A stretch of 36,572 bases of DNA from a virus. This document shows positions 17,763 through 36,572 of the stretch, one piece after another. The translations under genes and the position numbers were made by a program. How positions within the stretch are numbered: position 1 is the stretch's first letter; each line of letters starts with the position of its first letter. Below the pieces are notes generated by a model. It made no database searches. It was not told where the DNA came from and worked only from the letters and a program-made list of their open reading frames with translations. Location: the IMG/VR virus record IMGVR_UViG_3300043639_000005, positions 1 to 36,572 of that record. The stretch is one strand, 5' to 3'.

Positions 17763-20700
17763 TTAAGCACTGCTGTAGGTAAGCCACGCGCCCGCCATCT
17801 TCGTGGCGACGCAACCGGACCCGCCGCCGACCACGGTGAAATTGAAGGCTCCCACGTTGGCGGCCTTACCGTCCTGCACGTAAATTTGCGAGCCATTCAG
17901 AGTGTTGAGGGGAATGTTCGCCATCGTGAACAACCCTGGATACAGGTCACGCAGCAGCACGTAGCTGGAAAAGAAATACCCCGCGCTGCCGAGAAGTGTC
18001 CCTCCCCTGGCGAGAAGCCTGTTGTCGGACACTTGCACATCGGGAGATGACCCGTTGACGTGGATGCCATAGCCGCTGCCACCGACTATGACGACGCGAT
18101 TGTTGCTGATCGTTCCGTTCGCCCCATAGGCGACGAACGCTATCGTGGGTGACCCGGTCATGCTGGAGTTGACGTTGTTGCCAGAGATATCGAAGTCGTA
18201 AAGGTTCGCGCCAGAGCCGCCCGACTGCGGCTGGATCGACACGTGGAACTGAAACGCGGAATTAACAAAGCACGAGAACTGGTTCCCCTGGATTTGGATC
18301 GAGGCGATCACCGTGCCGCCATATTGAGTGACGTAAACGCCGCCGACCTTATGCTCCTCGAAAGAGTTGGAATTTATTATCAGGCTGCCGATGCTGCCCC
18401 TGTTGGCCAGCACATTGATCTGGATATTCGAGCCGAGGAACTTGTTCCCCCGGATCGACCCATACCCACAATGAACCTCGATGCAGCTTGACGACGGCGT
18501 CGTTGGGTTGCCGAAGAATATGTTTTCAACGATATGCCCGTGCGAACTTTCCACCCCGGTGTTGGCGTCATCCGAAAACAGGCCGGTGTAACCGAAAGCC
18601 TGGAAATAATTGTTCCGGGTCATAACGTTTTCAGCGCAGCGTTGCAGACTGATGCCGAACCACATCCCGGAGAATGCACAGTTCTCGATTATCGAACCGT
18701 CGTTGTCCGGTCCGGCTGGAGTGTCCGGCCCGCGAATATGAATGCCAGCGCCGCTGGTCCGAGGGCATGCGCTTTCGTAGCCAAGGGATGGCGCGCCCGC
18801 GATCTGGAACCCACGAAAAACACACTGCGCGAACGTATAGACAAAAAACACATCGCCTGTCGTGAACGTCGATTTGCAGAGAATTTGCGAGCAGTTATTG
18901 TCGAACGTGATGCCGGGGCCGACGCCCGCTCCCATGCCTTCGATGACGATACCGATGTCGTTCGTTGAGTTGACGCTGATCGTCGCGTCAACCACGAACC
19001 GCCCGATTGGGATCAACACGGTTGATCTGCCGCGCATCCCATTTGGCGCGGTCGCTATCGCGGCGTTGACTGTGTTCTGGATCGCGACCGTGTCGACCGT
19101 GACCGCGTCGCCCTTGGCCCCGAACCAGCGAATGTTGTAGGCGGCACCCCCTGTTTCCCGATACCAGCGCCGACCGCTGCCGTCACGGATGATGGTTCCG
19201 CCATTGTCCAGTGAGGTCGTATCGGTTGAAACGTAGACAAAGAACCCCTCGCCGCCGTCAGCCGGACCGTAGTAGCCCTGCACCACGCAGTTGGTGAGCG
19301 CGACCGATCCGGTGTAGGCGCGTAACGTCGCGATGGTGGCGAAGATCAACTGCGTCGTGCGTTGATCGACGTACTGCTTTGTCGTTGCATGTGCGGGGTT
19401 AGAAGGATCGCGTGCCAGCCAGACATCGCCAGCATGTATCGCCAGACCACCATCATCGAAGTGTGCCCAGTCGGTCGCGCCGCTGCTGACCATGTAGACC
19501 GATGAGCCGACGACGTTCAGCCGCCCGCCTGAGATGGTCAGCCCGTAGGCCCCGCCATACATGTTGAGGCCACGAGCCACGTCGTTCGATACGCCGACGT
19601 AGTTGTTCATGTAGATGCCGTTCTGGAACGTCGCCTGTCCGACGTGGGTCGAAGTCGAATTGACGGTGAGCGGTCCACTCAGGGCAATGGCGGCGTTCGT
19701 TCGGCTGATGGTGATTGGGTTGTCAATCGGTGCGCCGCTGTCATTGAACCGAGTGAAAGCGAAGTGATCGCTCGGCGTCATCTGGATGTTCCAGCGGGAC
19801 ACCGTTGACGTATTGAATTGCAGCGTGCGCCATTGGCCGGTCGGGCCGTCAATGTCTATTTGTGTGTTCGTGCCCCTGAACCACGAGTGATCGGCGTTGT
19901 GTATGATCCCGCCCGCGGCATCCATCCTGATCGTGTGCGCGGCTCCGTCGATGCGGATGCCCAGCGCCGAATTGCTCCACGGCATGATCGAGATCGCGCC
20001 CGTGTCCGGTGCGCCCGCGCTCACGAGGATCGCATGGTCTCCGGTCTGAACGATCCCGTTGTAGGCCCCGCCGCCGAGGTTCGGCATGATGGACAGATAT
20101 TTGGCGGCGGCCAGATTATGGACGTTAAACTGGGCGTTGACGGTTACGTCATTATTGAAGGTCGTTGGGACATAGGTGTTGATCGTGTCACTCACGCGAA
20201 GCCGCACGATCCCACCGCTGCGGAAGTCGTGTTTGTCGCCTACATTGTTGACGTTGTAATTCAACGTCGAGTCACTAACGACGATGCTGTAATTCGTTCC
20301 GTTTGGCGAACCCCAGAACGTGATGCCGCGCGAACTGTCAGATGGACCAGACACGCCGTTGTTGAGGTTGATGCCGCCGCTGACGCTGAGGTTCGCCGCG
20401 ACATTTACGCTGGTTCCGACCCAAAGGCCCTGAAGGATCGTCGCGTTGCCAGAAGTGTCGATGATGAACCGGAACGCCTGCACGTTCTCGTCGCTGATGA
20501 TGTAGACGCCATCGTTCCGGGTGCCAGCCGCCCAGGTGCGGACCCCCGTGACGGTTGAGAAGTAGCGCGCCCAGTTCCCGTTTGGGACGGTGATTGAGAC
20601 GGGATCGTTGCCAACGCCATTAACAAGCAAGTTGCGATTGATCGTGACAGGCGTGTCGAAGGTTGTCTGGTTCAATGTGAAACGAACCGCGCGTGTCTGA

Positions 20701-23579
20701 CCCGCGTCTGAGTTGGCGTCGTTCGCGGTGTTGGTCAGCCAGATGTCGACGTGTTCGTAGCCCCATGCGTTCGATACGAAGCCAGACCGGATCGAGGCGA
20801 CATACCGTGGTCCACCGTCCCCTGTCTCAGGTGCGAATGTTCCGCTGAAGCGTATAATGCTTTTCCCAAGAAAGCCTCCCGTGGGGCTCAGCCAGAGTTG
20901 AGCAGATGTGTCGGTCGGCGTGTAGTTGATCCGCAGCCCGCCGCTCATCGTGTCTCCGACCTTGGAGACATAGACGCCGCTGCCCGTCGCGGGTGCAAAG
21001 TTGTTCGTTACCCAGCTTTGAACGGCGATGTTGCCGCTGTCCCAGCCATTGACGATGACGTGGGTGTTGGTGCCGTCCCACTTGAAGCCATACCAGTTTG
21101 TATCACCGAGGCCACGATACATGATGCCGACGGTGCCATCATTGTAGATGTTGTGCGTCGTCGTCTCGCCGCCAACGGAGAGAGGTCCGGAAATAGTTAC
21201 GCCAAGCTGGGTAAAAACCTGCATGTCCGATGGACCGATGCGGACCGTCTCCAGAGAACCATTCCAGAATGAGTGATAAGTATGTCCCGGTTCGGTAACA
21301 ACATAGTTGAGGCGTGCGATGGACACACCGTCCCATGACGTGCTGAAGCCATAGTGATTTCCGACACCTCCGTCATAGAGCCTGATGTGCTTGGAGGTAT
21401 CGGTTGGCGGGACATTGACCTGACCGAAGCGAAGCCCACCGCTGACACTGACACCATTCGCCGCCGTCATACCGATGGTGCCAGACGGGCTGTCGATGCG
21501 TATGCCTATCGGTATGTTACCCCACGTCGTCAGCGTGAGCGCGCCCGTGTCCAGTGAGCCTCGCGTGAACATCAGCACCGTGTCATTGGCCTGGGTGATG
21601 CCGTTCCACGCGCCCTGTCCCGCGCCAGGGTAAATGTTGAGAGATGACCCGAATTGATTGACGCCGATCTGTGCGTTGACGGTCAGTACGCCCGACATAG
21701 TGTCGCCGCTCTTCGCGACGTAGTTACCGAGAGCGCCGGTCGTTGCGTAGTTAGCCCGCAGGTATCTGAGCGTGACCGCTTCCATGTCCAGCACGGGATC
21801 GACGCCAAGCGCGACCGTGCTTGTGAACGCGGCTGTGCCGGTGATGTCGATGTGGTTCGGGTATCTTATGTAAAGGACCGAGGTGCCATCGCGATCAGCG
21901 AACGCGAGATCAGAGTTTGTCCCCGCGCGCCCTCGGAACAATCCTCCCCAGTTCGCATCCGTGTAGATAGACCCTTGGGAGAAGTCACCGCCCGACCATG
22001 ATATGCCGTTCCACGCGTAGAGGTGGCCATAAAAGTTCGTTGTGAGATGGAAACTCTGCGCTGGGTTATCAGTGCGTGCGTAAAAGTCCCAAACGACGGT
22101 GCCGACACCGGCTGCGTTGGTGCTGTAAATTCCGAAATGATTGTCGCTGCCGACAACCATGCGGACGCCAGTTCCGGCGTTGTCATTGAACTGGAAACTC
22201 TGATTGTTGGCGATGCTTAGCTGGCCGGTCATCGTTCCGCCAGCGGTTGGAAGGTAAGCGCCGAGGTCGCCCATCGTCGCCAACGTGCCGACCGGCGTTC
22301 CGTCAACGTAAGCGTGAACCTTGTTCGGCGTCCCCTCCCACTTGAACCCCATGAGGTTCGTTCCGCCGCCGAGATTGTAGCTGATGCCCACTCCTTGAAG
22401 GCTCAGGTTCCCGCTGTTCCCGAGATACATGATCCGCGACCATGTGCTGGCACCGACCTGATACCAACTGAAACCCGCCGAGGCCCAGTTGCATCCGTTG
22501 ACGATGGCCACGTCACCGCCGCCGTCAGTGTTCCACGTCAGAGCGCCGTAGCCGCCCCCTGGCATTGGTCCACCGTTCTGCTCGCTGAACGTGAACCGCT
22601 TGACATCGGTCTGGCCGTTGACCGCGAGGTTGCCGGTGACCGTTCCGCCAGCGATTGGTAAGTATGGGCCACCAAGCGGCTGATGGTTGTCGACGTAGCG
22701 TTTCGTTGCGATGCCAAGCGGGTCGGTTGGATCACCGGCCACGGTCCCCAGACCCGTTGCGCGACTAAAATAGAATGAGTTGAATAACCCCTGACCAGTG
22801 TCGCTGTAAGCGGACAGAAAGAACCCTGATCCCGCGTTTGCCCCGGTCTCACCCGCCGCATCGACACCATAGAGCCAGCGCGTCACCCCGTTGGTCTGGT
22901 AGTAGGTGATGCGGTTCGTCGATGGCCCCGCGTTCATGTAAATGGCGGCATACCCCGCGCCATTAAATCCGAACGTCACGTCGTAACTAACTGACAGCGA
23001 ACCGGGGGACACTATGAGATTGCCCTGGATCGCCAGCGAGCCAGTCATGGTGTCGCCGTTTGTATTGACCCAGCGGGCATCGCCCTGCGCGTTGGTCGAG
23101 TAGTTGTTTTGCAGGTAGCGAAGCGGAACGGCTTCCATCGCGTTGACCGGATCGTGGTCGAGATACAGGCCGACGTCCACGCCAAGGTTGGCCCCGGCAC
23201 CATTGAACGACATCGTGAGCATGCCGCCTGACACGAGGTTCAGGTTGCCCGACGTGACGCTGAACCCGCCCCACCCGTCAAACAGCGAAAGGTGTTGCGT
23301 CAGGTTCAAGGGATTGCCATCGGAGATGACGCGCTGGCCGAAACTTAGTCCGCCTGACATTTGATCGCCGGTTTTCTTGACCCAGCGTCCGTCACCGAGC
23401 GCGGGGAACGCGCCCGACCCGGCGATCGGGATGATCGAGGTCGCGAAGCCGCCCGCGTTGCCCTTGCCATACCAGAGCGTTTCGTCGACCTCATTGAAGG
23501 CGACTTCGGACGCGAGCAGCGACCCAGGCGCCCCGGCGGCGCCAGAGGTTCGGCGTTTCAGGCGAAGGATGTCAGGCAA
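17763..23579 (-). CDS. Giant modular tail fibre/spike with pectin-lyase-like beta-helix
   Basis: A 1938-residue fibre or spike. Residues 1-60 are an anchor domain shared with the adjacent fibre (LRLKRRTSGAAGAPGSLLAS, then FNEVDETLWYGKG). Residues 60-1400 are a shaft punctuated by GDTMSG/GGTVTG boxes, each opening a module that repeats themes such as GFKWxGT and LGIRID. From about 1409 a different block begins: VVQGYYGPADGGEGFF, DNGGTIIRDGSGRRWYRE, then WFGAKGDAVTVDTVAIQ at about 1485, the entry motif of Pectate_lyase_3 beta-helices. Ladder rungs follow (IENCAFSG, IVENIFFG, IRGNKFLG, ISGNNVNS, VSDNRLLA). It probably binds or degrades host polysaccharide. Base composition is visibly less GC-rich than its neighbours, suggesting transfer. 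Confidence 0.88.
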   Translation of the reverse strand: MPDILRLKRRTSGAAGAPGSLLASEVAFNEVDETLWYGKGNAGGFATSIIPIAGSGAFPALGDGRWVKKTGDQMSGGLSFGQRVISDGNPLNLTQHLSLFDGWGGFSVTSGNLNLVSGGMLTMSFNGAGANLGVDVGLYLDHDPVNAMEAVPLRYLQNNYSTNAQGDARWVNTNGDTMTGSLAIQGNLIVSPGSLSVSYDVTFGFNGAGYAAIYMNAGPSTNRITYYQTNGVTRWLYGVDAAGETGANAGSGFFLSAYSDTGQGLFNSFYFSRATGLGTVAGDPTDPLGIATKRYVDNHQPLGGPYLPIAGGTVTGNLAVNGQTDVKRFTFSEQNGGPMPGGGYGALTWNTDGGGDVAIVNGCNWASAGFSWYQVGASTWSRIMYLGNSGNLSLQGVGISYNLGGGTNLMGFKWEGTPNKVHAYVDGTPVGTLATMGDLGAYLPTAGGTMTGQLSIANNQSFQFNDNAGTGVRMVVGSDNHFGIYSTNAAGVGTVVWDFYARTDNPAQSFHLTTNFYGHLYAWNGISWSGGDFSQGSIYTDANWGGLFRGRAGTNSDLAFADRDGTSVLYIRYPNHIDITGTAAFTSTVALGVDPVLDMEAVTLRYLRANYATTGALGNYVAKSGDTMSGVLTVNAQIGVNQFGSSLNIYPGAGQGAWNGITQANDTVLMFTRGSLDTGALTLTTWGNIPIGIRIDSPSGTIGMTAANGVSVSGGLRFGQVNVPPTDTSKHIRLYDGGVGNHYGFSTSWDGVSIARLNYVVTEPGHTYHSFWNGSLETVRIGPSDMQVFTQLGVTISGPLSVGGETTTHNIYNDGTVGIMYRGLGDTNWYGFKWDGTNTHVIVNGWDSGNIAVQSWVTNNFAPATGSGVYVSKVGDTMSGGLRINYTPTDTSAQLWLSPTGGFLGKSIIRFSGTFAPETGDGGPRYVASIRSGFVSNAWGYEHVDIWLTNTANDANSDAGQTRAVRFTLNQTTFDTPVTINRNLLVNGVGNDPVSITVPNGNWARYFSTVTGVRTWAAGTRNDGVYIISDENVQAFRFIIDTSGNATILQGLWVGTSVNVAANLSVSGGINLNNGVSGPSDSSRGITFWGSPNGTNYSIVVSDSTLNYNVNNVGDKHDFRSGGIVRLRVSDTINTYVPTTFNNDVTVNAQFNVHNLAAAKYLSIMPNLGGGAYNGIVQTGDHAILVSAGAPDTGAISIMPWSNSALGIRIDGAAHTIRMDAAGGIIHNADHSWFRGTNTQIDIDGPTGQWRTLQFNTSTVSRWNIQMTPSDHFAFTRFNDSGAPIDNPITISRTNAAIALSGPLTVNSTSTHVGQATFQNGIYMNNYVGVSNDVARGLNMYGGAYGLTISGGRLNVVGSSVYMVSSGATDWAHFDDGGLAIHAGDVWLARDPSNPAHATTKQYVDQRTTQLIFATIATLRAYTGSVALTNCVVQGYYGPADGGEGFFVYVSTDTTSLDNGGTIIRDGSGRRWYRETGGAAYNIRWFGAKGDAVTVDTVAIQNTVNAAIATAPNGMRGRSTVLIPIGRFVVDATISVNSTNDIGIVIEGMGAGVGPGITFDNNCSQILCKSTFTTGDVFFVYTFAQCVFRGFQIAGAPSLGYESACPRTSGAGIHIRGPDTPAGPDNDGSIIENCAFSGMWFGISLQRCAENVMTRNNYFQAFGYTGLFSDDANTGVESSHGHIVENIFFGNPTTPSSSCIEVHCGYGSIRGNKFLGSNIQINVLANRGSIGSLIINSNSFEEHKVGGVYVTQYGGTVIASIQIQGNQFSCFVNSAFQFHVSIQPQSGGSGANLYDFDISGNNVNSSMTGSPTIAFVAYGANGTISNNRVVIVGGSGYGIHVNGSSPDVQVSDNRLLARGGTLLGSAGYFFSSYVLLRDLYPGLFTMANIPLNTLNGSQIYVQDGKAANVGAFNFTVVGGGSGCVATKMAGAWLTYSSA

Positions 23580-32683: not shown

Positions 32684-34429
32684 TCATCCCAGCGTAATCA
32701 GTCCGCGCGCCTCGTAAGTCGAGGTCGTGTCGACGGTGCTCATGGCGTGCGCCATCGCCATGATCAGCGCGATCGCGGCGTCGATCTTGTTCTCGGGGCG
32801 CGCTTTGCGCGGGTAGACGTTGTCGCGGGCGTCGGTGTGGCCGACGACGTTGCCGACGCACCAGCCCAGCGGGCCGTTCATGTCGTGGCGGATGCGTCCA
32901 CCCCGGATCGCCGCCTCGAGTTCGCGGGTCGGCGGATTGAAGTTCAGCGCGTTCGAGCGGAATTCGTTGCACGGCACGCCATTCGCCATGAGACGTTGCG
33001 CCATGTGAACGGAATTGAACGGGTCGAAGGCGACGGAGAGGACGCGGAAACGCGCGCACATGTCGAGGATGTCGGCCTCGATCGTGGCGAAGTCGGTTTC
33101 GTTCCCCTGCGTGATGATCAGTTCGTTGTTCGCGGCCCATCCGGGATAGGACGGGTTCCTCGCCTCCATCACGGCGGCTTCGTTCAGATAGCAACGGGCG
33201 AAAACGGAGAACAGCAACGCTTCCTTGCCGTTCGCGTCGATCACATGTTCGGGGAAAACAGCGACGACGGCGGCGAGGTCGGCGCGCGAGGCGAGATCGA
33301 CGCCGATGTAGCAGTCGCGGCCCTCGAAAGCGGATATGTGCAGCGCGGGATCGCCGCAGGCGTTCCATGCGCGGGTTGAGAACAGGGCTTCGTCGGCGCC
33401 GACCCAGACGTTGAGGTGACGGGTTCGGGCGGACGCCTCTTGCGAGGGATTGTTGCGGGCCTGTCGCATGATGGCGCGGATCGCGTCCGGTTGGACGGAA
33501 TGGCCCCACCCCGGATTGGCCTTGATCCAGGTCGACTCTTCCCACGGGTCGTCCTGGTCGTCGATCGAGTAGATGATGCCGAACAGGCGATCGTCGTCCT
33601 GCCCGCCGGTCACGACGCGCATCAGATAGTCCCAGACCTGTTTGCCAATCCCGGAACTGTTCGAGGTCGCGGTCGAGATCGACAGGAGGAACGGCTGGCG
33701 GCGTTTACCCATGGCGGTGATCAGCGCGTCATAGACCTCGCTGGTGCGGTGCGATCCGATTTCATCACAGACGGCGACGGCGACGTTCAGGCCGTCCAGC
33801 GCCTTCGCGTCGGACGATATTGGAATGAACTTGCTCGCGGTCGACTCCTGAAAGATCGAGTTCGTCAGGACGCCGACGCGCCACTCTTGTTGCATCTGCG
33901 GGCAGCGGCGGACCATGTTTTGCGCGGTGTCGAACAGGATGCGCGCCTGATCGCGGGTCACGGCGGCGGCGTAGCCTTCCGCTCCACCTTCGTTCTCGCC
34001 GAACGTCATATACATCGCGAGCGGCGCGGAGATCGTTGTTTTGCCGTTTCCTTTTGGCACATAGACGACGGCCTGACGAAAGCGGCGCGTGTCGGGATGT
34101 TCGCGTTCCTTGAAACCGAAGATGTTGGCATACGCGAACTTCTGCCAGTCCATCAGGCGGATCGGTTTGTTCGCTTCCGGTCCCTTGATGTTCGGCATCT
34201 GGGTAGCGAACAGCATCGCGCGGGTCGCGGCGGTTTCGTCGAACAGCCAGCGCGTGTCGCGTTTCTTCGCTTCGCGGTGATCGCGGAGGAAACGCTCGCA
34301 CGCCATGCGGGCGTGGATCGAGGCGGCGGTCGGGTCGTCGGCGATCCGGCGCGCGTAGTCGAGCGCGTCGCGCACGAAGGCGCGGGGGTCGTCTCCGGGA
34401 GGGGAAGCGGGTCGTCTACTTCTTGCCAC
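32684..34429 (-). CDS. terL: Terminase large subunit
   Basis: A 581-residue packaging motor and nuclease of the HK97/P27-associated Terminase_1 type. Residues 124-131 hold the Walker A (YVPKGNGKTT) and 216-223 the Walker B (VAVAVCDE). The nuclease domain shows D378 (CYIGVDLASRADL), D469 (VAFDPFNS) and D550 (ENKIDAAIALIMAMAHA), the expected acidic trio. I take GTG 34429 as start since it falls inside the end of the small subunit gene (overlap 14 bases); a longer reading to 34543 is a Pro/Arg shadow of that gene. No ribosome site is strong, consistent with coupling. Confidence 0.93.
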   Translation of the reverse strand: MARSRRPASPPGDDPRAFVRDALDYARRIADDPTAASIHARMACERFLRDHREAKKRDTRWLFDETAATRAMLFATQMPNIKGPEANKPIRLMDWQKFAYANIFGFKEREHPDTRRFRQAVVYVPKGNGKTTISAPLAMYMTFGENEGGAEGYAAAVTRDQARILFDTAQNMVRRCPQMQQEWRVGVLTNSIFQESTASKFIPISSDAKALDGLNVAVAVCDEIGSHRTSEVYDALITAMGKRRQPFLLSISTATSNSSGIGKQVWDYLMRVVTGGQDDDRLFGIIYSIDDQDDPWEESTWIKANPGWGHSVQPDAIRAIMRQARNNPSQEASARTRHLNVWVGADEALFSTRAWNACGDPALHISAFEGRDCYIGVDLASRADLAAVVAVFPEHVIDANGKEALLFSVFARCYLNEAAVMEARNPSYPGWAANNELIITQGNETDFATIEADILDMCARFRVLSVAFDPFNSVHMAQRLMANGVPCNEFRSNALNFNPPTRELEAAIRGGRIRHDMNGPLGWCVGNVVGHTDARDNVYPRKARPENKIDAAIALIMAMAHAMSTVDTTSTYEARGLITLG

Positions 34430-34931
34430 CCGGTATGACCTGGAGCGCGGCCCATGGGTTCTTGACGGGGTCGATCTCGGGCGGCGCGGCGTCGGCGTGC
34501 GCGTGGAGTTTGAGGCGTGGGCGGGCGGCGGGGGAGAAGCCAAGTTCCTGCGCGGCGCGGAACAGCGTTTGCGCGGTTTTGTCGAGGATCGAATTATAGG
34601 GCGAGGGTTCGAGACCGTTCGGACCCTTCACCAATAGTTTCAGTTTCGTATCTTGATCGAGCAAGGCTTGCATGAGCATCGCGGTGCGGTGGCGGTCCTC
34701 CGCGTCGACCCAGACGCGCAACATGGTCCGATCGATCAGCTTCACCACGCCTTTCGGCATGTGGGCGATGGCGTAGCGCCATCCGGCTTCCTGGCTGTCG
34801 GTCAGGTCGGGCGGGGGTTCCTCGAGGTCGCCGAGCGGCAACGGCTCGAACTGGCGGTCGCGGCCATGGTTGGTCGCGTTGTAGGTGCCATGGAGTTTGT
34901 GCAACGCGGTCGGCTTCGGGCGTCGGCCCAT
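34416..34931 (-). CDS. terS: Terminase small subunit (P27 family)
   Basis: A 171-residue DNA-recognition subunit. The opening GRRPKPTALHKLHGTYNATN is the signature of P27-type small terminases, followed by PPPDLTDSQEAGWRYAIAHM, a helical region, YNSILDKTAQTLFRAAQELG and FSPAARPRLKL, also typical. The end is VIPGGKK. ATG 34931 overlaps the preceding stop (ATGA). In known P27 systems it binds phage DNA and hands it to the large subunit encoded just downstream. Confidence 0.92.
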   Translation of the reverse strand: MGRRPKPTALHKLHGTYNATNHGRDRQFEPLPLGDLEEPPPDLTDSQEAGWRYAIAHMPKGVVKLIDRTMLRVWVDAEDRHRTAMLMQALLDQDTKLKLLVKGPNGLEPSPYNSILDKTAQTLFRAAQELGFSPAARPRLKLHAHADAAPPEIDPVKNPWAALQVIPGGKK

Positions 34932-35164
34932 CAGCGATCACCAAACCCGATCGGGGCGAGCGGATGAAAGCGCCCCAATTGTTCCCAGAATTGCCGGGAG
35001 GCTTCGTGGAGCGCGAGGCCATCCGGGATCACGACCTCGCCCGTCGCCAGGTTGATCCGCAGGCCGCACGACGCGAACGTCAGCCATTGCGTCGGCTCGA
35101 TCGCATTGAGCAAGCAAAGGGAGCCATCCGTGGTGGCCCAAGGTGATTTGGTGATGTCACTCAT
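34931..35164 (-). CDS. Hypothetical small protein between glycosyltransferase and terminase
   Basis: A 77-residue protein. It has a mainly beta first part (SPWATTDGSLCLLNAIEPTQ, then WLTFASCGLRINLATGEVVI) and an amphipathic helix (LALHEASRQFWEQLGRF). Two Cys, no knuckle. ATG 35164 is chosen with GGAG about a dozen bases ahead; a TTG at 35176 would overlap the upstream stop. I do not recognise it. Position suggests co-expression with the DNA-handling genes. Confidence 0.6.
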   Translation of the reverse strand: MSDITKSPWATTDGSLCLLNAIEPTQWLTFASCGLRINLATGEVVIPDGLALHEASRQFWEQLGRFHPLAPIGFGDR

Positions 35165-35165
35165 G

Positions 35166-35915
35166 TCAGTTCCCAATCTCCACGTTCCATTGCGATCCGG
35201 CGCGTTCGACGGCGCGCACGAGGCCCGGATAGGTTTTGCACAGGCGGCGGATGCAATCGCGTTCGATCGATTGCGTGCGGTAATCGTGACAACCGCCCTT
35301 GTCGTGCCAGTGCGAATTCGTCCAGTTGAGATATTGCGCGCAGACGACGGCGCCGTCCTCGGTGATGCAACGGGCGCAGAGTTCGTAATCCTCTTTGACC
35401 GCGTAACTTTCGTCGAAGCGGACGCGACCGTCGTTCACGATCCCCATGCACGAGGCGGTGATATAGGAACGGAAGCGAAACGGGTAATACGGATACACGG
35501 AACGGGTCGCGCCGTCCGTCGAGACGCCGAAGATACGCAACTTCAATTGTTCCGTTATGGCAAACAGTTTCTCGAATTCGTGCAACCATGTGAATTCGTC
35601 GAGGGACACGCGCATCGACTGACGGGCGAGGAGTTTCGTGTAGCCCTGCATCCTGACGTCGTCGTCGATCATCACGATCCGGGTCGATCCGGCGTTGTCG
35701 AGGATGTAGTTCCGGGTCGCGGTGATGCCGCGCACGGTGTCGGGCACGGGGACCACGTTGCGGGCGCCAGCGGCCCTGTAAGCGGGCGCCTCGAGTGCGG
35801 GCACGTAGACGTGACACGAGGGGAGGACGTCCTGCGTGCGCACCTTCCCGGCGCGGCCCTTGGACGGAACGGCGATGTGGACTCTACCGGCGGGCGGTTT
35901 GCGCGGCGCGGTCAT
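35166..35915 (-). CDS. GT-A glycosyltransferase, TET-associated (TAGT)-like
   Basis: A 249-residue protein with a nucleotide-sugar transferase fold. VHIAVPSKGRAGKVRTQDVL (S-K-G-R at 18-21), ALEAPAYRAAGARNVVPVPD and GITATRNYILDN (R68, N69) match the opening of TET/JBP-associated glycosyltransferases as I know them. IVMIDDDVRM places the metal-binding DDD at 84-86. SYITASCMGIV and FDESYAVKEDYELCARC (E175-D176) give the acceptor-side acidic motif. In phages and fungi this family is predicted to glycosylate modified cytosine in DNA. ATG 35915 overlaps the ParB-like stop. Cys-rich (six) in the second half, perhaps a zinc site. Substrate is unproven. Confidence 0.75.
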   Translation of the reverse strand: MTAPRKPPAGRVHIAVPSKGRAGKVRTQDVLPSCHVYVPALEAPAYRAAGARNVVPVPDTVRGITATRNYILDNAGSTRIVMIDDDVRMQGYTKLLARQSMRVSLDEFTWLHEFEKLFAITEQLKLRIFGVSTDGATRSVYPYYPFRFRSYITASCMGIVNDGRVRFDESYAVKEDYELCARCITEDGAVVCAQYLNWTNSHWHDKGGCHDYRTQSIERDCIRRLCKTYPGLVRAVERAGSQWNVEIGN

Positions 35916-36550
35916 CGATCGAGCATCGCGAGGAGGTCGCCGGCCCGCACGACGCGCTGCGTTCCGACGTCGTCGAGGATCGATCCCTTCTTGTATCCGC
36001 CACGGCGCACGGGGGTCAGGGACAGCGCGACCTTGAGGCGTTCCCATTCGTCGAGGTCGGCGCACATGATCACGCAATACTCGCGGGCGGGTTCGAGTTG
36101 GAGCGCTTGCGGCAGGTCGTCGGGCGCGTCGCGGGCGGCGAGGTCGGCGGCGTCGAACCCGATCGTCTCGAGGTCGAGACCGTGTTGCGCGAGGTCGGCG
36201 AGTTCGACGCGGAGGAGTTCTTTGTTCCAGGTCGAGTGCGTCGCGATTTCGTTGTCGGCGATCATGTAGGCGCGTTTTTGCGTGTCGGACCATCCGCGCG
36301 CGACGACGACGGGAATCTCGCCAATTCCGAGTTGACGGGCGGCGAGGACGCGACCGTGACCGGCAATGATGCCGTCGCCTTCGTCAACAAGCACGGGAAC
36401 GGTCCAGCCCCATTCGCGGATCAGTCCGGCGATCTCGGCCACCTGCGCGGCGGTGTGACGGCGCGCGTTGCGGGCGTGCGGCACGAGCGCGTCGACGGCG
36501 CGGCGTTCGATCTGGTCGGCGGGCCACGCGGGGGCCTCAGTTTCGCCCAT
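35912..36550 (-). CDS. ParB/Srx-fold protein
   Basis: A 212-residue protein. Residues 15-100 are a ParB-type N-domain: VDALVPHARNARRHTAAQVA, LIREWGWTVPVLVDEGDGII, AGHGRVLAARQLGIGEIPVV (the G-H-G-R box) and RAYMIADNEIATHSTWNKEL. In phages this domain is often fused to an adenine methyltransferase. Here it is followed instead by about 65 residues (EYCVIMCADLDEWERLKVAL, then GYKKGSILDDVGTQRVVRAG) with no methylase motifs. ParB-fold phage proteins can be CTP-binding or nuclease-like. It is the first gene of the late run seen here; more may lie past the window edge. ATG 36550. Confidence 0.85.
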   Translation of the reverse strand: MGETEAPAWPADQIERRAVDALVPHARNARRHTAAQVAEIAGLIREWGWTVPVLVDEGDGIIAGHGRVLAARQLGIGEIPVVVARGWSDTQKRAYMIADNEIATHSTWNKELLRVELADLAQHGLDLETIGFDAADLAARDAPDDLPQALQLEPAREYCVIMCADLDEWERLKVALSLTPVRRGGYKKGSILDDVGTQRVVRAGDLLAMLDR

Positions 36551-36572
36551 AGCCTAACCGTAAAAAATCAGT

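Follow-up and report, generated by a model that had tools for sequence, protein, structure and literature searches.

The TAGT glycosyltransferase of phages T2 and T6 puts sugar on DNA cytosines (PMC13216743, PMC13390438), and all characterised TAGTs use acceptors derived from hydroxymethylpyrimidines (PMC13216743). The known DNA TAGTs adjoin a gene for dCMP hydroxymethylase or thymidylate synthase. Solitary phage TAGTs, found in 288 of 753 genomes, have been flagged as potential novel transferases, and the α-GT of T4 is recruited by the gp45 sliding clamp (PMC13216743). In ParB-fold proteins, the arginine of Box II is required for the binding of CTP, ATP or GTP, and a survey of this fold describes fusions to methylases and DUFs with no coupling to a glycosyltransferase (PMC12704722). 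No paper in the literature that we searched, the scope of which did not include Iyer et al. 2013, links ParB to DNA glycosylation. Here, we describe a TAGT gene coupled to a ParB-like gene at the right edge of a viral DNA stretch of 36,572 nucleotides (IMG/VR record IMGVR_UViG_3300043639_000005; hereafter the window).

Layout of the locus and the genome end

The TAGT and ParB-like ORFs were both confirmed on the minus strand (Table 1). They overlap, as the preliminary description had reported, and share 4 nt (ATGA). The gene order is ParB-like, TAGT, 77-aa ORF, TerS, TerL, portal, protease and capsid. The pair had been said to run straight into terminase; TerS and TerL do lie downstream, but the small 77-aa ORF intervenes. 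This ORF gave no match in a Pfam search, and its homologues were found only in a few close relatives. Elsewhere in the window, a 1938-aa minus-strand ORF (17763-23579) lies in a part of lower G+C content (56-61%). Its counterpart in the relative G002 has 1583 aa and is only 47% identical.

Table 1. Features of the locus (window coordinates) and contigs with common termini
Feature	Position	Strand	Remarks
ParB-like gene (P0002)	35912..36550	minus	212 aa; first gene at the left genome end
TAGT gene (P0001)	35166..35915	minus	249 aa; GT-A fold
Small ORF between TAGT and TerS	34931..35164	minus	77 aa from ATG at 35164, stop at 34931
Terminase small subunit (TerS)	34416..34931	minus	PF05119 E 4e-6, phrog_83 E 5e-17
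Terminase large subunit (TerL)	32684..34543	minus	PF20441 E 3e-40, PF03354 E 5e-25, phrog_9 E 2e-146
ParB/NTP-binding fold, residues 13-138	36137..36514	minus	Box II-like GHGR at residues 64-67
ParB-like C-terminal domain, residues ~148-205	35936..36109	minus	invariant positions; TAGT-linked
DDD motif, D84-D86	35658..35666	minus	presumed metal/nucleotide-sugar site; invariant in a 23-sequence alignment
KEDY motif, residues 174-177	35385..35396	minus	predicted GT2-like ED catalytic motif, from alignment
22-nt leader, 5'-ACTGATTTTTTACGGTTAGGCT-ATG	36551..36572	minus	window edge, probable cos end
Contigs sharing the window terminus			L002-L004, L006, L009, L011, L012, L017, L075, L076, L078, L079
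Loci with the second-lineage terminus	position 1		L106, L107, L110, L112, L113, L115, L118, L119, L122, L123

At least 12 contigs from different metagenomes start within a few bases of the right edge of the window. The terminus they share lies 22 nt before the ParB start, with the consensus ~RNNGATTTTT and the joint CGCGCCCCA. Contig L004 starts with CCGATCT, abutting the shared terminal base. We take this heptamer to be the 3'-terminal bases of an Illumina adapter, a remnant as expected from a read that begins at a physical DNA end. In relatives whose sequence runs across the joint, GAC-CGCGCCCCA stands on one side of it and ACTGATTTTT on the other. The relative G002 (43.4 kb) terminates precisely with GAC at its opposite end, CGCGCCCCA being absent there. 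Because the contig termini coincide, L004 carries the adapter remnant and G002 stops at GAC, we conclude that the right edge is a genome end, probably a cos end whose 3' overhang of ~9 nt was lost during library preparation. ParB and TAGT are therefore the first and second genes of the linear genome.

A second lineage has its own common terminus (GGTTAAGCGACCTAGAGC / GGTTGCGAGACCT), located ~55 nt before ParB in 10 loci. The window matches G002 up to ~34.6 kb of the 43.4 kb and does not include the other genome end; the far part absent from it amounts to roughly 7-9 kb. In the relatives G003 and G009, the two ends repeat each other exactly over 98 and 127 nt, respectively, a feature of circularly assembled complete genomes.

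Families and conservation of the pair

The glycosyltransferase of the window is a member of the TAGT family. It scores 40.6 bits against Pfam PF20691 (curated cutoff 27.5; profile positions 2-205 of 205), similar to the 37.2 bits of the T6 enzyme, and matches phrog_842 (beta-glucosyl-HMC-alpha-glucosyltransferase) with E 3e-22. The T6 enzyme was aligned to the profile by hhalign with 96.7% probability over 209 columns, and the PF20691 cutoff is also passed by the other members tested, the TAGT of Fireman excepted. The AlphaFold2 model (pLDDT 82, pTM 0.82) adopts a GT-A fold, and its top BFVD matches are TAGTs (TM ~0.75) and a beta-glucosyl-HMC-alpha-glucosyltransferase. Its structural neighbours in the PDB are general GT-A/GT2 enzymes (WrtF, TarP/TarS, GalNAc-Ts), and a profile search against PDB sequences gave no significant match. 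Family profile, PHROG, hhalign and viral fold matches thus agree with the class proposed in the preliminary description. The three motifs it had picked out are present as SKGR (residues 18-21), DDD (84-86) and KEDYE (174-178). Most of their positions are invariant or near-invariant among homologues as low as 34% identity, a conservation that also extends over 92 non-redundant loci (97% cut). In the TAGT alignment, D176 is invariant and K174, E175 and Y177 are near-invariant. A TAGT tree was tried as a test of a single origin of the ParB association, and it stayed unrooted as the outgroup branches were too long.

The ParB domain called earlier in the upstream gene is upheld by concurring PHROG families (phrog_620, E 7e-42; phrog_498, a ParB-methylase fusion, E 2e-41), by profile matches to Spo0J/ParB/Noc structures and by Foldseek matches to Noc/ParB. 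Pfam ParB_N scores 22.6 bits, below its cutoff of 26.3. Among 19 sequences, G64 of the Box II-like motif is invariant and R67 is present in 90% or more. The C-terminal domain of ~60 aa, with the pattern QxLQLxPxxEY...EWxxLK...VRRGGYKKGSxxD..G.xRV, has no match of its own in Pfam or PHROGs. In cultured phages, its only hit was the Alt gene of Acinetobacter phage Ac42 (E 0.04), which we treated as chance.

The window TAGT, used to search viral contigs, yielded 60 loci. A second search, based on alignment, turned up 346 relatives, 80 of which were kept. A ParB-like gene lies directly upstream of the TAGT in 123 of the 126 loci that have more than 550 nt upstream of it, some contigs being counted twice. 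The three exceptions are L064 and L065, with distantly related actinophage TAGTs, and L126, where an HNH-like ORF takes the place of ParB. The loci range from 29 to 67% G+C with TAGT identity as low as 34%, so that the co-inheritance goes beyond close kinship. Conversely, when the ParB C-terminal domain alone served as the query, 80 loci were returned, every one of them with a TAGT. The ParB-TAGT pair is an evolutionary unit, coupled in both directions. It is carried by hundreds of uncultured or environmental viral contigs, with no single-ORF ParB-TAGT fusion among the loci examined, and a scan of bacterial genomes with strict peptide patterns gave one match, a Planctomycetota MAG contig.

Across the 92 non-redundant loci, divergence of the C-terminal domain follows that of the TAGT (partial rank correlation 0.68 with ParB-N controlled), and divergence of ParB-N follows it only weakly (0.36). 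We read this covariation of sequences as a sign, supporting rather than proving, that the C-terminal domain may contact the TAGT or share its substrate; shared ancestry contributes too.

One record of 83,470 bp (G005; L150-L152) holds two different ParB-TAGT copies ~42 kb apart, each with a TAGT 72% identical to that of the window. It consists of two related genomes joined at cos, which could reflect prophages in tandem or an artefact of assembly.

Gene neighbourhoods and searches for an acceptor-making enzyme

The link between ParB genes and DNA-modification genes, which the preliminary description had drawn, is indeed seen ahead of terminase in several phages, with ParB proteins from the same PHROG families. 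In Myoviridae sp. ctOK67, the ParB (62% identical over residues 8-132) is fused to an N6/N4 methylase. In Moraxella phage Mcat8 (L069:4470-6192), a ParB-like gene is followed by a C5-methylase, a second methyltransferase-like protein and terminase. In Gordonia phage CaiB, ParB leads an operon of TET and amino-acid:DNA transferase, again followed by terminase. Streptococcus prophage Javan291 has ParB and TAGT and then TerL, and terminase follows the TAGT in 7 of 10 diverse loci tested. Other placements occur as well: the AT-rich L031 carries the pair among tail genes, and in Microbacterium Metamorphoovirus it lies near the right end, away from terminase, adjoining a GT2 enzyme and a gene of the UDP-glucose/GDP-mannose dehydrogenase family. 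In Microbacterium phage Fireman (L063:4561-5346), this dehydrogenase-family gene directly follows the pair, hinting at a uronic-acid donor in that lineage.

The gap between ParB and TAGT seems to be a site where small genes insert, holding a phrog_1761-like gene in L011 and L017 and a GcrA-like gene in L012. In L009 (671-920), it holds an Acb2/Tad1 hairpin-domain gene (PF24729, 59.6 bits). Acb2/Tad1 is a cyclic-nucleotide sponge acting against CBASS and Thoeris, fitting an anti-defence locus. Gordonia phage NHagos (L161:630-2470) encodes ParB, an ATPase+GNAT protein, a formyltransferase-like protein and terminase. This set occupies the position of ParB-TET-ADDT in its relative CaiB and is possibly another modification system.

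No C5-cytosine methylase was detected in the window or in any of 37 relatives, and 13 further ParB-TAGT records gave one partial match (G047, near the pair). TET/JBP dioxygenases had no match in the window and the relatives searched, the control CaiB being detected weakly (E 6e-6). A homologue of dCMP hydroxymethylase or thymidylate synthase was likewise not found in the window, 18 relatives, Javan291 and Fireman, with LuckyBarnes detected as a control. Together with searches for N6/N4 methylases and for a 2OG-Fe(II) oxygenase family (PF13640), these searches revealed no conserved acceptor-making gene. PF13640 missed the control CaiB and so carries little weight for TET-like enzymes. N6/N4 methylases occur in three of 25 virus records (G003, G035, G040); the G035 match has internal stops, and the G003 gene lies across the genome end from the pair and is not conserved. 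A scan of the non-structural ORFs of G002 and G003 identified RecT, integrase, an excisionase-type HTH protein, GapR and one N6/N4 methylase, and no oxygenase. Given this gene content, including the integrase, these phages are probably temperate.

The methylase and TET genes had been expected just past the right edge. This expectation fails, as the edge coincides with the left genome end and the relatives searched are without TET, without thymidylate-synthase-type hydroxymethylase and, apart from the one partial exception, without C5-methylase. Since both enzymes are missing, the pair, if it modifies DNA, does so by a route other than phage-encoded TET/5mC.

Possible functions and comparison with known systems

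The ParB-TAGT pair is probably a self-contained phage module for DNA glycosylation, serving anti-restriction, with a putative substrate and mechanism. We favour this reading because the TAGT family, the coupling to ParB and the slot before terminase are all shared with DNA-modifying enzymes. By analogy, the ParB-like protein would be an NTP-controlled, clamp-like DNA-binding partner and not a partition protein, and its C-terminal domain would recruit the TAGT to phage DNA as gp45 does for the T4 α-GT. The TAGT would transfer sugar from a host nucleotide-sugar onto phage DNA that has been replicated but not yet packaged. Candidate acceptors are an unmodified base, a modified base that comes from the host, or one that an unrecognised enzyme has hydroxylated. 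Against such a module speaks that no acceptor-making enzyme was found in the relatives searched, and the GT2 and dehydrogenase neighbours in Microbacterium phages are compatible with a different substrate too. The placements away from terminase in those phages and among tail genes in L031 also count against it. More specifically, the pair might sugar unmodified DNA directly, with no prior hydroxymethylation and with the ParB-type NTP-gated clamp as the targeting subunit, a version that we regard as doubtful.

The TAGT may instead use hydroxymethylated pyrimidines in a T-even- or TET-like manner, with a hydroxylase from the host or from an unrecognised or unsequenced phage gene. This alternative is possible, if on the unlikely side. 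It agrees with the acceptors of every characterised TAGT (PMC13216743), the 7-9 kb at the far genome end leave room for such a gene, and G047 has its partial C5-methylase near the pair. However, the complete genomes of G002, G003, G009, Javan291 and Fireman contain no TET or thymidylate-synthase homologue, the first three contain no C5-methylase, and the detection of CaiB (TET) and LuckyBarnes (thymidylate synthase) shows that the searches were able to see a true case. The absence of a base hydroxylase from the relatives searched would also suit a pair that glycosylates a virion or host protein or a cell-surface glycan, with ParB as regulator or adaptor. GT-A/GT2-like folds mostly act on glycans or proteins, and WrtF, TarP/TarS and GalNAc-Ts are the PDB neighbours of our model; the sugar-related neighbours of the Microbacterium pair point the same way. 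We nevertheless consider a target of this kind rather improbable. The closest viral structures are TAGT and beta-glucosyl-HMC-alpha-glucosyltransferase, the obligate ParB and the pre-terminase slot resemble the DNA-modification genes of other phages, and, judging from the gene map, the membrane-protein context of serotype conversion was not seen at the locus. That the ParB-like protein is a genuine partition protein beside an unrelated TAGT is very improbable, despite its fold and its temperate, integrase-carrying relatives. A ParA-type ATPase was found in none of 18 records with all 14 controls detected, the protein scores 22 bits against TIGR00180, far below the cutoff of 58.45, no HTH domain was recognised in it, and the pair is kept across very divergent phages.

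Solitary TAGTs are an acknowledged puzzle, and a large group of them now forms half of a conserved ParB-fold pair. Our analysis also names the TAGT-linked C-terminal domain of ParB and removes the assumed TET and methylase partners. Should the pair add sugar to DNA, it would constitute a compact anti-restriction system, would possibly permit DNA glycosylation in vitro without hydroxymethylated bases, and would give the ParB fold a role beyond segregation. Direct sugaring of unmodified DNA, if true, would bring to DNA modification a chemistry and a principle of targeting that are both new.

Among known systems, the beta-glucosyl-HMC-alpha-glucosyltransferase of T2/T6 belongs to the same PF20691 and has the DD, ED and GGC motifs and the GT-A fold in common with the window TAGT. 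The T6 enzyme has DDT where the window has DDD, and the two are ~26% identical. In addition, T6 has an adjoining dCMP hydroxymethylase and no ParB, whereas the window pair has ParB and no thymidylate-synthase-type hydroxymethylase. The solitary TAGTs described previously lack an α- or β-GT, as does the window; that report (PMC13216743) makes no mention of ParB, whereas here the solitary TAGT comes with a conserved partner. The phrog_498 fusions and the ParB plus C5-methylase of Mcat8 share the ParB fold (40-62% identity) and the slot upstream of terminase, but their effector is a methylase, and tblastn similarity ends before the TAGT-linked C-terminal domain. In the Gordonia DR-cluster (CaiB), ParB is the first gene, beginning at nt 1 of the genome, and overlaps the modification genes that precede terminase, an arrangement similar to that here. 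The effectors of CaiB are TET and an amino-acid:DNA transferase, whereas that of the window is the TAGT alone.
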